From the NCBI GenBank assembly GCA_027492795.1, contig JAPUEB010000006.1, forward strand, positions 248,001 to 312,000: a stretch of 64,000 nucleotides of DNA. The letters are read 5' to 3'. Under the pieces are notes generated by a model. The model was not told the origin of the DNA, made no database searches, and saw only the letters and a program-made list of their open reading frames with translations. The stretch is from Chryseobacterium sp. (GTDB lineage Bacteria > Bacteroidota > Bacteroidia > Flavobacteriales > Weeksellaceae). Shown piece after piece: positions 56,365-64,000 of this stretch. A program made the translations under genes and the position numbers. Each line of letters begins with the position of its first letter. The first letter of the stretch is position 1.

Positions 56365-57237
56365 TCATTTATACATATAATTTATTTCATTCTCAATTAT
56401 TCTTTTAACAAAACCATCATTTCTGTATTTTTCAAATAATTGATTAATTGAATTTTCTAAATCCTTTTCCCTATCAGTTGAAATTTTGTTTAAGAAAAAT
56501 AATATAACTTTAATAGATGAATCCAAAGACATCCTATCATTATTGTTAAATTCTAATTCGGGTATTTTTGAAATACCTTTAGGTACCTTTAAGTCAAAAA
56601 GAACTCCTCCATGCGCACAAGTGTTTCTTAACAACACCAAAGTTTCCATTAAACTAATAAACTTTGCTAAATTTTTTACACCATAAATATTCGTAATTCT
56701 TTCTTTTATATCATTATCATGTAAGTTTCTAAAGATTTTTAATATTACTCCAAATGTAAAAAACTCTAGTGTTTTCCAAGCAGGAGCATATTTATCGTTT
56801 AGATATTTTTGATGATGCTTTTTTATAGGCTTATTTGATTTTTTAAAATCGTCACTATAATACTTTTCAATATCCTTTATGAAATTTTGGTCAACAATTT
56901 TTGGGTCAATAAACCAAGTCGGAGAGGTTTTATATTTATTTGAAACATAATATACTAACTTAGTTCTAAAATTTATTTCTATACGATTAAGATATTTTGT
57001 TATGACATTTCGCAAATCAACGTCTAAATAATATAGATTAATTATATCAGAAAACTTTATTCCACTCAATAAATTATGATTATCATCAATAACAAATGGA
57101 TGCCAGTAGAATCCCAATCTATAATATCCAATGTCTAGCAATATTTCCTTTGCCTTATTCGGTTCTAAATCAATGGTCATTCCACGTTTCTCAAGCAAAG
57201 CAATTTGTTCATTGAAAGTTGTTGCTATATTTCCCAT
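56365..57237 (-). CDS. abiF: Abi family protein (Abi_2, AbiF/AbiD type)
   Basis: A 290-residue abortive-infection protein. The N-terminus has the family's GYYRLGFYWHPF (about residues 37-48); the C-terminus has LLRNTCAHGG with R204 and H209, the R-x4-H pattern of HEPN RNases. Abi_2 proteins block phage growth, in some cases as the toxin of an RNA-regulated pair. It is more AT-rich than its neighbours, 24 bp from lysA, and has a -7 box close to its ATG (57242-57249). Confidence 0.9.
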   Translation of the reverse strand: MGNIATTFNEQIALLEKRGMTIDLEPNKAKEILLDIGYYRLGFYWHPFVIDDNHNLLSGIKFSDIINLYYLDVDLRNVITKYLNRIEINFRTKLVYYVSNKYKTSPTWFIDPKIVDQNFIKDIEKYYSDDFKKSNKPIKKHHQKYLNDKYAPAWKTLEFFTFGVILKIFRNLHDNDIKERITNIYGVKNLAKFISLMETLVLLRNTCAHGGVLFDLKVPKGISKIPELEFNNNDRMSLDSSIKVILFFLNKISTDREKDLENSINQLFEKYRNDGFVKRIIENEINYMYK

Positions 57238-61522: not shown

Positions 61523-61530
61523 TATCTTTG
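61523..61530 (+). promoter_or_regulatory. -7 box before the copper locus
   Basis: TATCTTTG, 8 bases before the ATG at 61539; nearly leaderless. The usual upstream TTG is not clear. Confidence 0.45.
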
Positions 61531-61538
61531 TTCGTGAA

Positions 61539-61904
61539 ATGAAAGTATTCTTTTCGACCATATTATCTATAATTGTTTTCTTTGCGAGTTTCCAGAACTC
61601 TCTGGTTTTGTTGGATTATAATATCCACAGAGAGTTCTACGAAGCTCATTGCGTAAACAAAGGCAAGCCAGAAATGGAATGCCACGGAAAATGCGAAATG
61701 AAAAAACAGGCAGAAAAAAGCAATTCTCCTTTTAATATCGTGAAAACTGGAGCTTTTGATTTTCATTTCGTTCCAAATGCTTTGGTAGAGATTCCAAATC
61801 TTCAAAAAGACTTTCACAACAACCATCAGAAGATTTTTCATACTAATTTTCATCAAATCTTGAAGGGCTATCATCAGATTTTGCCCCATCCTCCACAAGT
61901 TTAG
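61539..61904 (+). CDS. Small Cys/His-rich exported protein, copper locus
   Basis: A 121-residue protein with a signal sequence or anchor (about 5-20), then EAHCVNKGKPEMECHGKCEMKKQ with Cys38, Cys48 and Cys52 (C-x9-C-x3-C) and nearby Met, and a His-rich tail (FHNNHQKIFHTNFHQILKGYHQILPH). No known enzyme fold. Soft-metal-friendly residues and position before a Met/His lipoprotein and a copper-like receptor suggest periplasmic copper handling. Similar proteins occur beside TonB receptors in Bacteroidota as I recall. Confidence 0.75.
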   Translation: MKVFFSTILSIIVFFASFQNSLVLLDYNIHREFYEAHCVNKGKPEMECHGKCEMKKQAEKSNSPFNIVKTGAFDFHFVPNALVEIPNLQKDFHNNHQKIFHTNFHQILKGYHQILPHPPQV

Positions 61905-62022
61905 GTTTTTATTGCAATTCGCTTTATTTCAATGAAATGAAGCCATATCAACTTGCTTTTTAAAGAAATTTTTTCTTTAGAAAATCCAACCTATTTACAC
62001 AATCAAAAAAAAACCTAAAAAA

Positions 62023-62877
62023 ATGAAATTTTCATTAAAAATATTATTCGCCATGCTTGCTATGGCTTTGTTTTTCACGTCTTGTAGAAACAACGATGAA
62101 CCCGTAACTCCGATAACCAACGAACTGGAAGGTTTGAAAAAAATAAAAGAATTCTCCAACAACACGCATATTATCGAGCTTTATTCTGCTTCCGGAACTA
62201 CGAGTTTAGGATATAACGATATAAAAATCCGCATCAAAAACAAAACCGACAATTCCTACGAGAAAAATGCAACAATCTCTTGGATGCCGGTAATGCACAT
62301 GACTTCAATGTCGCATTCCTGCCCAAAATCTACAGTTACGAAAGTGAGTAACGACGGTACTTTGTACAAAGGATACATTGTGTTTCAGATGCCCCAAAAT
62401 GCAACGGAATATTGGGATTTGAAAGTTGATTACACCATCAATGGAACAAATTACACCGCAACTTCTGTAATTGATGTTCCGGCGCAAACTAAAAAAACCG
62501 TAAACTCTTTCATGGGTTCCGATAACACGAGATATATTGTGGCTTATGTAGAGCCAAAAACTCCGAAAGTTGCTGTAAACGACCTTGTTGTAGGCGTTTG
62601 GAAAATGCAGGACATGATGAGTTTTCCCGTTGTGGACGGATATACTGTAAAAATTGATCCAAGAATGCCGAGTATGGGAAATCATTCGTCTCCAAATAAT
62701 GTTCATGCAACACAAAATGGCGCAGGAAACCTCTACAACGGAAAACTTTCTCTTACCATGACTGGTTACTGGAAAATAAATTTGCAGCTCGCAAATAATT
62801 CTGGAACTATTTTGAAAGGCGAAGAAATAACTGCAACAAACGAAGCAAGCAGCATTTTCTTCGAAATTGAATTCTAA
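62023..62877 (+). CDS. Lipoprotein with Met/His metal motifs (YtkA-like), copper locus
   Basis: A 284-residue lipoprotein (lipobox FFTSCRN, Cys21). Two similar beta domains follow: residues about 45-160 with MPVMHMTSMSHSCP (88-101) and about 170-284 with MPSMGNHSSPNN. The pattern of a beta sandwich with clustered Met and His resembles YtkA/CopC-type copper binders. It is 118 bp after the small Cys/His protein and 65 bp before the receptor gene. Confidence 0.82.
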   Translation: MKFSLKILFAMLAMALFFTSCRNNDEPVTPITNELEGLKKIKEFSNNTHIIELYSASGTTSLGYNDIKIRIKNKTDNSYEKNATISWMPVMHMTSMSHSCPKSTVTKVSNDGTLYKGYIVFQMPQNATEYWDLKVDYTINGTNYTATSVIDVPAQTKKTVNSFMGSDNTRYIVAYVEPKTPKVAVNDLVVGVWKMQDMMSFPVVDGYTVKIDPRMPSMGNHSSPNNVHATQNGAGNLYNGKLSLTMTGYWKINLQLANNSGTILKGEEITATNEASSIFFEIEF

Positions 62878-62942
62878 ATTTTTCCACTAAAAGCAAAGTT
62901 TCCGCAAAAAAAGAAGCTTTGCTTTTTTCAAATTTTAAAATC

Positions 62943-64000
62943 ATGAAAAAAACAATTTTCCTGATTGCAGGATTCTTTTTTGCACAAAATATTTTGGCAC
63001 AAACTCATTACGACAGTCTGAAAACCAGAGAAATAGAAGAAGTAATCGTCATCGGAACTACGAATATTGCCAACAAAGAAGCAAAACCTTTAGGCTCCAT
63101 CGACGAATATTTGCAAAAATCTTCAAAAATAGATATGATTCGGCGCGGAAGCTACGCTTGGGAACCCACCATCAACAGCATGGCAACGGAAAGAACGCTT
63201 GTAACTATTGATGGAATGAGGATTTTCGGCGCTTGTACCGACAAAATGGACCCTATAACTTCGTATGTAGAAGTTTCCAATTTATCTGAAGCGGAAATAA
63301 TTTCGGGGCAGCAAGGTTCCTGTCATGGCTCTACAATAGGCGGTTCTATCGATTTGAAGCGGCAAAAAGGAAGTTTTGGCGAAAAAAGATGGAATTTTAA
63401 CATCAATTCAGGCTTTGAAACGGTGAATCAGCAGAAAATTTTTGGCGGTGGAGTTTCTTTTAAAAACAAAAAATTCTATTCCGATGCCGATTTTATGATG
63501 CGTGACGCCGAAAACTACAAAGACGGAAACGGCAATGAAGTTCTGCATTCACAATTCAAAAAAATCAATTTTTCGGAAACTTTGGGAGTGAAAATCGGTG
63601 AAAATAAATTGCTGGAAGGTTCGGTAATCTACGATAAAGCCAAAGATGTGGGCTATCCTGCGCTTCCAATGGATGTTTCTTTGGCAGAAGCAATAATTAC
63701 TTCTTTGAAATTTCAAATTTTGCCCAATTCTGATATTTTCAAAAATTGGGAAACCAAATTCTATTACAACACGGTAACACACAGAATGGACGACACAACG
63801 CGTCCCAACGTTCCCGTTCACATGGATATGCCTGGTTGGACGAAAACTTTTGGATATTTCTCGAAAATAAATTCGGTGTGGAAAAATCATAAACTATTGC
63901 TGAATTTTAATGGTTTTTACAACAAATCGGTTGCGGAAATGACGATGTATCCGAAAAATCCCGCCGAAAACTTAATGTTTATGTACACTTGGCCCGATGT
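62943..64000 (+). CDS. TonB-dependent receptor, OprC-like copper importer, N-terminal part
   Basis: Outer-membrane receptor cut by the right edge after about 352 codons. Signal peptide ends NILAQ; a TonB-box-like EEVIVIGT is at about 32-39; the plug domain follows. It carries CTDKM (Cys98, Met102) and HRM (His280, Met282). These match the CxxxM-HxM copper ligands of Pseudomonas OprC, both in order and in distance (182 residues here, 180 there as I remember). So I call it a copper importer, by inference. Confidence 0.88.
   Translation, partial: MKKTIFLIAGFFFAQNILAQTHYDSLKTREIEEVIVIGTTNIANKEAKPLGSIDEYLQKSSKIDMIRRGSYAWEPTINSMATERTLVTIDGMRIFGACTDKMDPITSYVEVSNLSEAEIISGQQGSCHGSTIGGSIDLKRQKGSFGEKRWNFNINSGFETVNQQKIFGGGVSFKNKKFYSDADFMMRDAENYKDGNGNEVLHSQFKKINFSETLGVKIGENKLLEGSVIYDKAKDVGYPALPMDVSLAEAIITSLKFQILPNSDIFKNWETKFYYNTVTHRMDDTTRPNVPVHMDMPGWTKTFGYFSKINSVWKNHKLLLNFNGFYNKSVAEMTMYPKNPAENLMFMYTWPD

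Follow-up and report, generated by a model that had tools for sequence, protein, structure and literature searches.

At the end of the 64,000-nucleotide stretch of Chryseobacterium DNA analysed here (the window), a small open reading frame (ORF1), a lipoprotein gene and a gene for a TonB-dependent receptor follow one another on the + strand. Sequence, fold and perfect co-occurrence give good support to copper acquisition by the OprC-like receptor together with an extracytoplasmic copper lipoprotein, as put forward in the original prediction. ORF1, which that prediction had made part of a metal hand-over chain, is probably a cis-acting nascent-peptide leader of the CutF/CruR kind and not a copper carrier. 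Taken as a whole, we consider it likely that OprC-type import with a lipoprotein is governed by a self-arresting, copper-sensing leader that acts through an RNA helix hiding the lipoprotein start.

The receptor and lipoprotein genes

The host genome is a 2.96 Mb draft, and the window lies on a contig that runs on past the window's end. The predicted three-gene, one-direction arrangement was recovered, with all three open reading frames in the places assigned to them, and the gap between ORF1 and the lipoprotein gene is 118 nt. The receptor gene begins at 62943 and is cut by the end of the window at 64000. Its complete sequence, which the original prediction had called for, was taken from the whole contig, where the frame runs without an internal stop to the equivalent of 64931 and encodes 662 aa.

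In a phmmer search of the PDB the receptor matched OprC only (best E 1.2e-17). The alignment sets GACTDKMD of the receptor opposite GACPNRMD of OprC, and tHRMDD opposite dHIMDN, so that C98 and M102 (C98-x-x-x-M102, codons 63234-63248) and H280 and M282 (H280-R-M282, codons 63780-63788) are aligned with Cys143/Met147 of the OprC plug and His323/Met325 of its barrel, and are by homology the likely copper ligands. The residue numbers are exact with M1 at 62943, and the proposed match to the OprC ligands in type, order and spacing holds in this alignment, with 182 residues from Cys to His in the receptor and 180 in OprC (PMC8610252). A set of 52 receptors shows no change at any of the four ligands, whereas eight different amino acids occur at position 281, flanked by H and M; C98/M102 formed part of the pattern by which these receptors were picked, which biases that half of the comparison and leaves H280/M282 as the unbiased half. 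Both motifs are also kept in 30 of 30 loci from a whole-protein search and in 19 of 19 loci found across the phylum by profile. The motif pair is absent from eight other TonB receptors of the same genome.

The best NCBIfam model for the receptor is TIGR01778, TonB-copper, at 130.7 bits; the equivalog cut-off of 472 bits is not reached. Since the window contains only half of its own receptor, the fold search was made with the modelled receptor of locus L040 from Chryseobacterium lacus (69 percent identical; pLDDT 82), for which the top 28 PDB chains were all OprC, at TM 0.83. In this model, OprC is the closest solved fold of the receptor. OprC of Pseudomonas aeruginosa and NosA of P. stutzeri share with it the plug CxxxM, the barrel HxM, their order and spacing, and the fold (PMC8610252), and differ from it in that identity is about 20 percent, in that the receptor stays below the TIGR01778 cut-off, and in their operon partners (PA3789 there).

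The lipoprotein gene (62023-62877) encodes 284 aa with a lipobox Cys21. Its Pfam match is YtkA (PF13115, 1.4e-6, 29.2 bits against a cut-off of 25.9), over the second of two beta-sandwich domains that stand in tandem in the predicted structure (pLDDT 92). For the first domain, residues 37-152, VIA-align gave CrdA of Helicobacter pylori as the clear best match (Z 13.4; next row Z 9.0), superposed with an rmsd of 2.6 over 105 residues; Foldseek on the lipoprotein returned only generic Ig-type tandems at a TM of about 0.2. CrdA and the YtkA domain have in common with the lipoprotein the beta-sandwich fold and a methionine-rich copper site (PMC9182242), but CrdA is a single domain without His and Cys, whereas the lipoprotein has two tandem domains, a lipid anchor and invariant His. 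M91, M93, H98, M123, M215, M218, H221 and M246 are invariant in 53 lipoprotein relatives, and the soft-metal motifs noticed earlier in this protein and in ORF1 are real and conserved among relatives.

Of 246 genomes in the family, 51 have the receptor (threshold E <1e-100), and these are precisely the genomes that have the lipoprotein. Of the 30 best loci, 29 have leader, lipoprotein and receptor in intact order; in the remaining one (L185, G003:C90) two genes, restriction-modification-like, are inserted between lipoprotein and receptor, with leader and lipoprotein still upstream. Named relatives belong mainly to Weeksellaceae and Flavobacterium, with one Salinimicrobium and one Crocinitomicaceae locus. 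In the window, the gap between lipoprotein and receptor (62878-62942) contains AAAGCAAAG/CTTTGCTTT, a hairpin with a T run behind it; by eye this resembles a terminator, and it may reduce expression of the receptor relative to the lipoprotein. In three same-order relatives (G464:C18, G554:C1 and G269:C12) the receptor gene is immediately followed by another leader of this family, as though every operon segment carried its own switch. Elsewhere in the window, an Abi_2 abortive-infection-like protein (56365-57237, - strand; PF07751, 8.7e-42) is encoded beside a pyridoxal-dependent (diaminopimelate-type) decarboxylase gene.

It is highly improbable that the cargo of receptor and lipoprotein is some other metal or a metal chelate and not copper ions. 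Such a cargo would be in keeping with the low TIGR01778 score and with the uptake of copper chelates by CrtA-type receptors (PMC12914433), but the four OprC ligands are invariant, every inspected leader context that contains a metal-related family is copper-related, and the host carries genes for copper enzymes, one nosZ and one cbb3 oxidase gene having been found. Within the family, receptor and nosZ are associated (37/14/27/168, odds ratio 16), an association that genus membership confounds. Service to N2O reductase only, as for NosA, was rejected on account of the 14 receptor genomes without nosZ, and a general copper supply to cuproenzymes is for the same reason the safer reading.

ORF1 as a probable leader peptide

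ORF1 (61539-61904) encodes 121 aa: an N-terminal segment that is hydrophobic by eye, the sequence CHGKC, a variable linker, and the C terminus LPHPPQV-stop. The C48-H-G-K-C52 codons (61680-61694) specify a putative copper-sensing CxxxC, and the H117-P118-P119 codons (61887-61895) a putative ribosome arrest motif. Across 40 leaders C38, C48, G50, K51 and C52 are invariant, as are P118 and P119, and His is frequent in ORF1. When 93 distinct upstream open reading frames were selected by CxG[KH]C alone, in 92 of them 2-8 residues separated a PP from the stop; the residue before PP was H in 65 and R in 17, and the residues preceding HPP or RPP vary. CxGKC and PP lie 62-70 residues apart (sd 2.4), while the intervening stretch is hardly conserved. 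This conserved C-terminal (H/R)PP, like the covarying RNA helix described below, had been missed in the original prediction.

CutF-like leaders have been delimited as proteins of <150 aa with PP in the last 15 residues, a same-strand downstream gene within 1000 nt, and a Cys-rich metal motif with a stem-loop over the next start (PMC9973294). ORF1, with 121 aa, PP at 118-119, the lipoprotein gene 118 nt away, CHGKC and the helix P1, falls within these limits. The published rules further include an N-terminal signal peptide, at the place of which ORF1 shows the hydrophobic segment seen by eye. In the 93 leaders the C-terminal motif is mostly HPP or RPP and not the RAPP/RGPP of other arrest peptides. 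DUF2946 of Pfam matched none of 40 leaders up to E 5; Pfam and NCBIfam gave nothing meaningful for ORF1 and 40 relatives, and no leader had a convincing Pfam family.

The leader is far more widespread than the receptor. Its profile is present in 222 of the 246 family genomes, in up to five copies, and matches 135 of 395 sampled Bacteroidota genomes, often several times. Besides OprC-type receptors with YtkA lipoproteins, the next genes in 20 inspected leader regions were MbnP/MbnH (PF20243; TIGR04039), YHS or SCO1, or a second OprC-type receptor (CPSRM/HSM). At three family relatives (L173, L179 and L188) the leader is kept at the same chromosomal site, and the lipoprotein and receptor are replaced by the CPSRM/HSM receptor; the helix is kept there too, with other bases.

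The CxxxC with a hypervariable linker of fixed length and PP near the stop, the occurrence of the leader at the head of further copper operons, and the covarying helix that joins the ORF1 stop to the next start codon each lead us to regard ORF1 as a cis-acting nascent-peptide regulator. The same three lines argue against the hand-over chain of the original prediction, in which all three proteins carry copper and ORF1, as a small secreted Cys/His chaperone or reductase, passes it on. That reading can draw on the export-type N-terminal segment, the invariant Cys and frequent His, and on genes that are always together. It is nevertheless very unlikely: a chaperone acting in trans accounts neither for a C-terminal half that is hypervariable yet fixed in length and ends in an invariant PP, nor for a helix that overlaps the ORF1 stop codon, nor for the different operon headed by each copy of the leader.

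A helix over the leader stop and the lipoprotein start

In the predicted fold of the window, an 11-bp helix (P1) closes a three-way junction that contains two intergenic hairpins, P2 (61921-61943) and P3 (61957-61983). The 5' arm of P1, TTTAGGTTTTT (61900-61910), holds the leader stop TAG (61902-61904), and its 3' arm, AAAAACCTAAA (62009-62019), occupies positions -14 to -4 of the lipoprotein start. The fold has a z of -4.49, with none of 200 shuffles as good. The arms covary: TAGG/CCTA in the window corresponds to TAACTT/AAGTTA, TAATTTGA/TCAAATTA, TAATTGTT/AACAATTA and others in relatives. When MAFFT alignments were given to RNAalifold, P1 emerged in one clade, with nine pairs, four of them changed on both sides, whereas a set of Flavobacterium loci yielded no consensus helix, a miss that we ascribe to the varying distance between arm and ATG.

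Because of this variation, covariation was assessed by an alignment-free comparison of arms within and across loci. For 63 loci the helix score was 17.08 for arms of the same locus and 13.75 for arms of different loci (sd 0.37, z 9.0), and none of 20,000 permutations, which were restricted to the two clades by exchanging loci of the same clade, reached it; three control pairings gave a z of about -1. A separate test of duplex energy gave -10.57 within and -7.84 between loci (sd 0.30, 0 of 20,000). A stop-to-start helix is likewise found at the leaders of other operons (n 25, z 4.6), with 14 bp at L188 and 15 bp at L172. A convincing helix is missing in about a quarter of the 63 loci, and an Rfam scan of the window returned nothing.

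With the RNA masked as far as a stalled ribosome should reach, the start region of the window rose in predicted unpaired probability from 0.05 to 0.95, and the mean over the 63 loci rose from 0.47 to 0.67 (Wilcoxon p 2e-6; control mask 0.49). Masking hardly alters accessibility of the start region in some loci with a 3' arm placed further upstream, such as L014 and L019. Bacteroidota lack Shine-Dalgarno sequences. In F. johnsoniae initiation is promoted by adenines at -6, -12 and -13 (PMC6847099); the adenines at these three positions all fall in the 3' arm of P1. The lipoprotein ATG itself lies in a small predicted hairpin, AAUGAAAUUUUCAUU (62021-62035), in both states.

From about 61760 to 62045, C exceeds G (for example 20.5 versus 7.7 percent), which leaves room for added Rho-dependent termination, as in CruR. 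A transcriptional mechanism could build on this bias and on the action of CruR through Rho (PMC9426467): arrest would block Rho-dependent termination between the genes, and the helix would just stabilise the RNA or couple reinitiation. We think this unlikely, as a pure Rho mechanism has no need of a covarying helix placed exactly over the stop and the initiation region, and AT-rich DNA makes a weak rut site.

Proposed mechanism and relation to known copper leaders

In the mechanism we favour, opening of P1 by the arrested ribosome, the receptor would carry copper across the outer membrane through its CxxxM/HxM site, and the tandem YtkA/CrdA-like lipoprotein would bind it on the extracytoplasmic side through the side chains of Met and His, as their homologies suggest. 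When copper is scarce, the ribosome would arrest at the C-terminal HPP of ORF1, sitting on the 5' arm; P1 would open, the A-rich initiation region of the lipoprotein gene would be freed, and lipoprotein and receptor would be made. Copper on the nascent CxxxC would relieve the arrest, and once the ribosome had left, P1 would close over positions -14 to -4 and shut the operon. In toeprints a ribosome reaches 16 nt from its P-site codon, and one with the prolines of ORF1 in its P and A sites would cover the RNA to about 61906, that is 7 of the 11 bases of the 5' arm. CruR arrests in vitro at PP with the two prolines in just these sites (PMC12992588).

The arrest, the sensing of copper and the sign of the response are what we infer; because the operon imports copper, arrest and expression are placed at low copper, and release and closure at high copper. 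Against the model stand the HPP motif, which differs from RAPP/RGPP, the motifs with measured arrest, and CutF, which works with the opposite sign. The same leader might be read in the CutF manner, copper prolonging the pause and turning the operon on, with lipoprotein and receptor serving copper tolerance. CutF, which also has CxxxC and whose next start lies under a stem-loop, does respond positively (PMC9973294), and CrdA is a copper-resistance determinant (PMC9182242). This reversal is nonetheless quite unlikely, given that TonB-dependent receptors import, that copper represses oprC and bfrG (PMC8610252, PMC9426467), and that the other leader contexts, including MbnP/MbnH and SCO1, belong to copper acquisition and cuproenzyme assembly.

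CutF of the Rhodobacter capsulatus cutFOG operon is a short exported leader that acts in cis, as ORF1 probably would, and shares with ORF1 the CxxxC, a C-terminal proline motif, an intergenic structure shielding the next start and copper genes downstream (PMC9973294). It differs in that the downstream gene is an oxidase turned on by copper and the start is shielded through its Shine-Dalgarno sequence (PMC9973294), whereas the ORF1 locus is without a Shine-Dalgarno sequence, its arm overlaps the leader stop codon, its motif is HPP and the genes downstream are for uptake. CruR of Bordetella pertussis (cruR-bfrG(crtA)-bp2921; PMC9426467, PMC12992588) also stands first in a three-gene TonB receptor operon, with a pair of Cys, PP shortly before the stop, fixed motif spacing and a long intergenic region. 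CruR, however, has CXXC and RAPP, the latter three residues before the end (PMC9426467), with 45 residues between, and its operon is controlled by Rho termination and encodes a PepSY_TM protein and a CrtA-type receptor; the ORF1 locus has CxxxC and HPP at 62-70 residues, a start-hiding helix, a YtkA lipoprotein and an OprC-type receptor.

The view that the three genes were undescribed as a unit stands only in part. TonB copper receptors under leader control are known (PMC9426467, PMC12914433), as are operons of leader and TonB receptor, namely cruR-bfrG and those in which DUF2946 leaders lie upstream of TIGR01778 OprC-type receptors (PMC9426467). For the combination of leader, YtkA lipoprotein and OprC-type receptor, for the covarying stop-codon helix, and for the CxGKC...HPP class as a copper leader of Bacteroidota, we found no description in the open-access literature. 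About a fifth of 5,334 entries listed as CutF-like proteins are from Bacteroidota (PMC9973294), and in a 2025 survey of RAPP/RGPP leaders those related to Cu were missing from this phylum (PMC12992588), where the (H/R)PP class appears to fill their role.

Little is known of how Bacteroidota acquire copper and control that uptake. We give an even chance to the broader proposal that these bacteria own widespread nascent-peptide copper switches, in which a CxGKC...HPP leader arrests the ribosome, the arrested ribosome opens a stop-overlapping helix that hides an A-rich start, and the cargo is exchangeable. The locus would correct a natural misreading, in that small Cys/His proteins beside metal receptors need not be metal carriers. 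If the proposal is true, these switches would be copper sensors that work without a transcription factor and regulate translation without a Shine-Dalgarno sequence, and CxGKC...HPP together with the helix would predict copper-controlled operons across the phylum.
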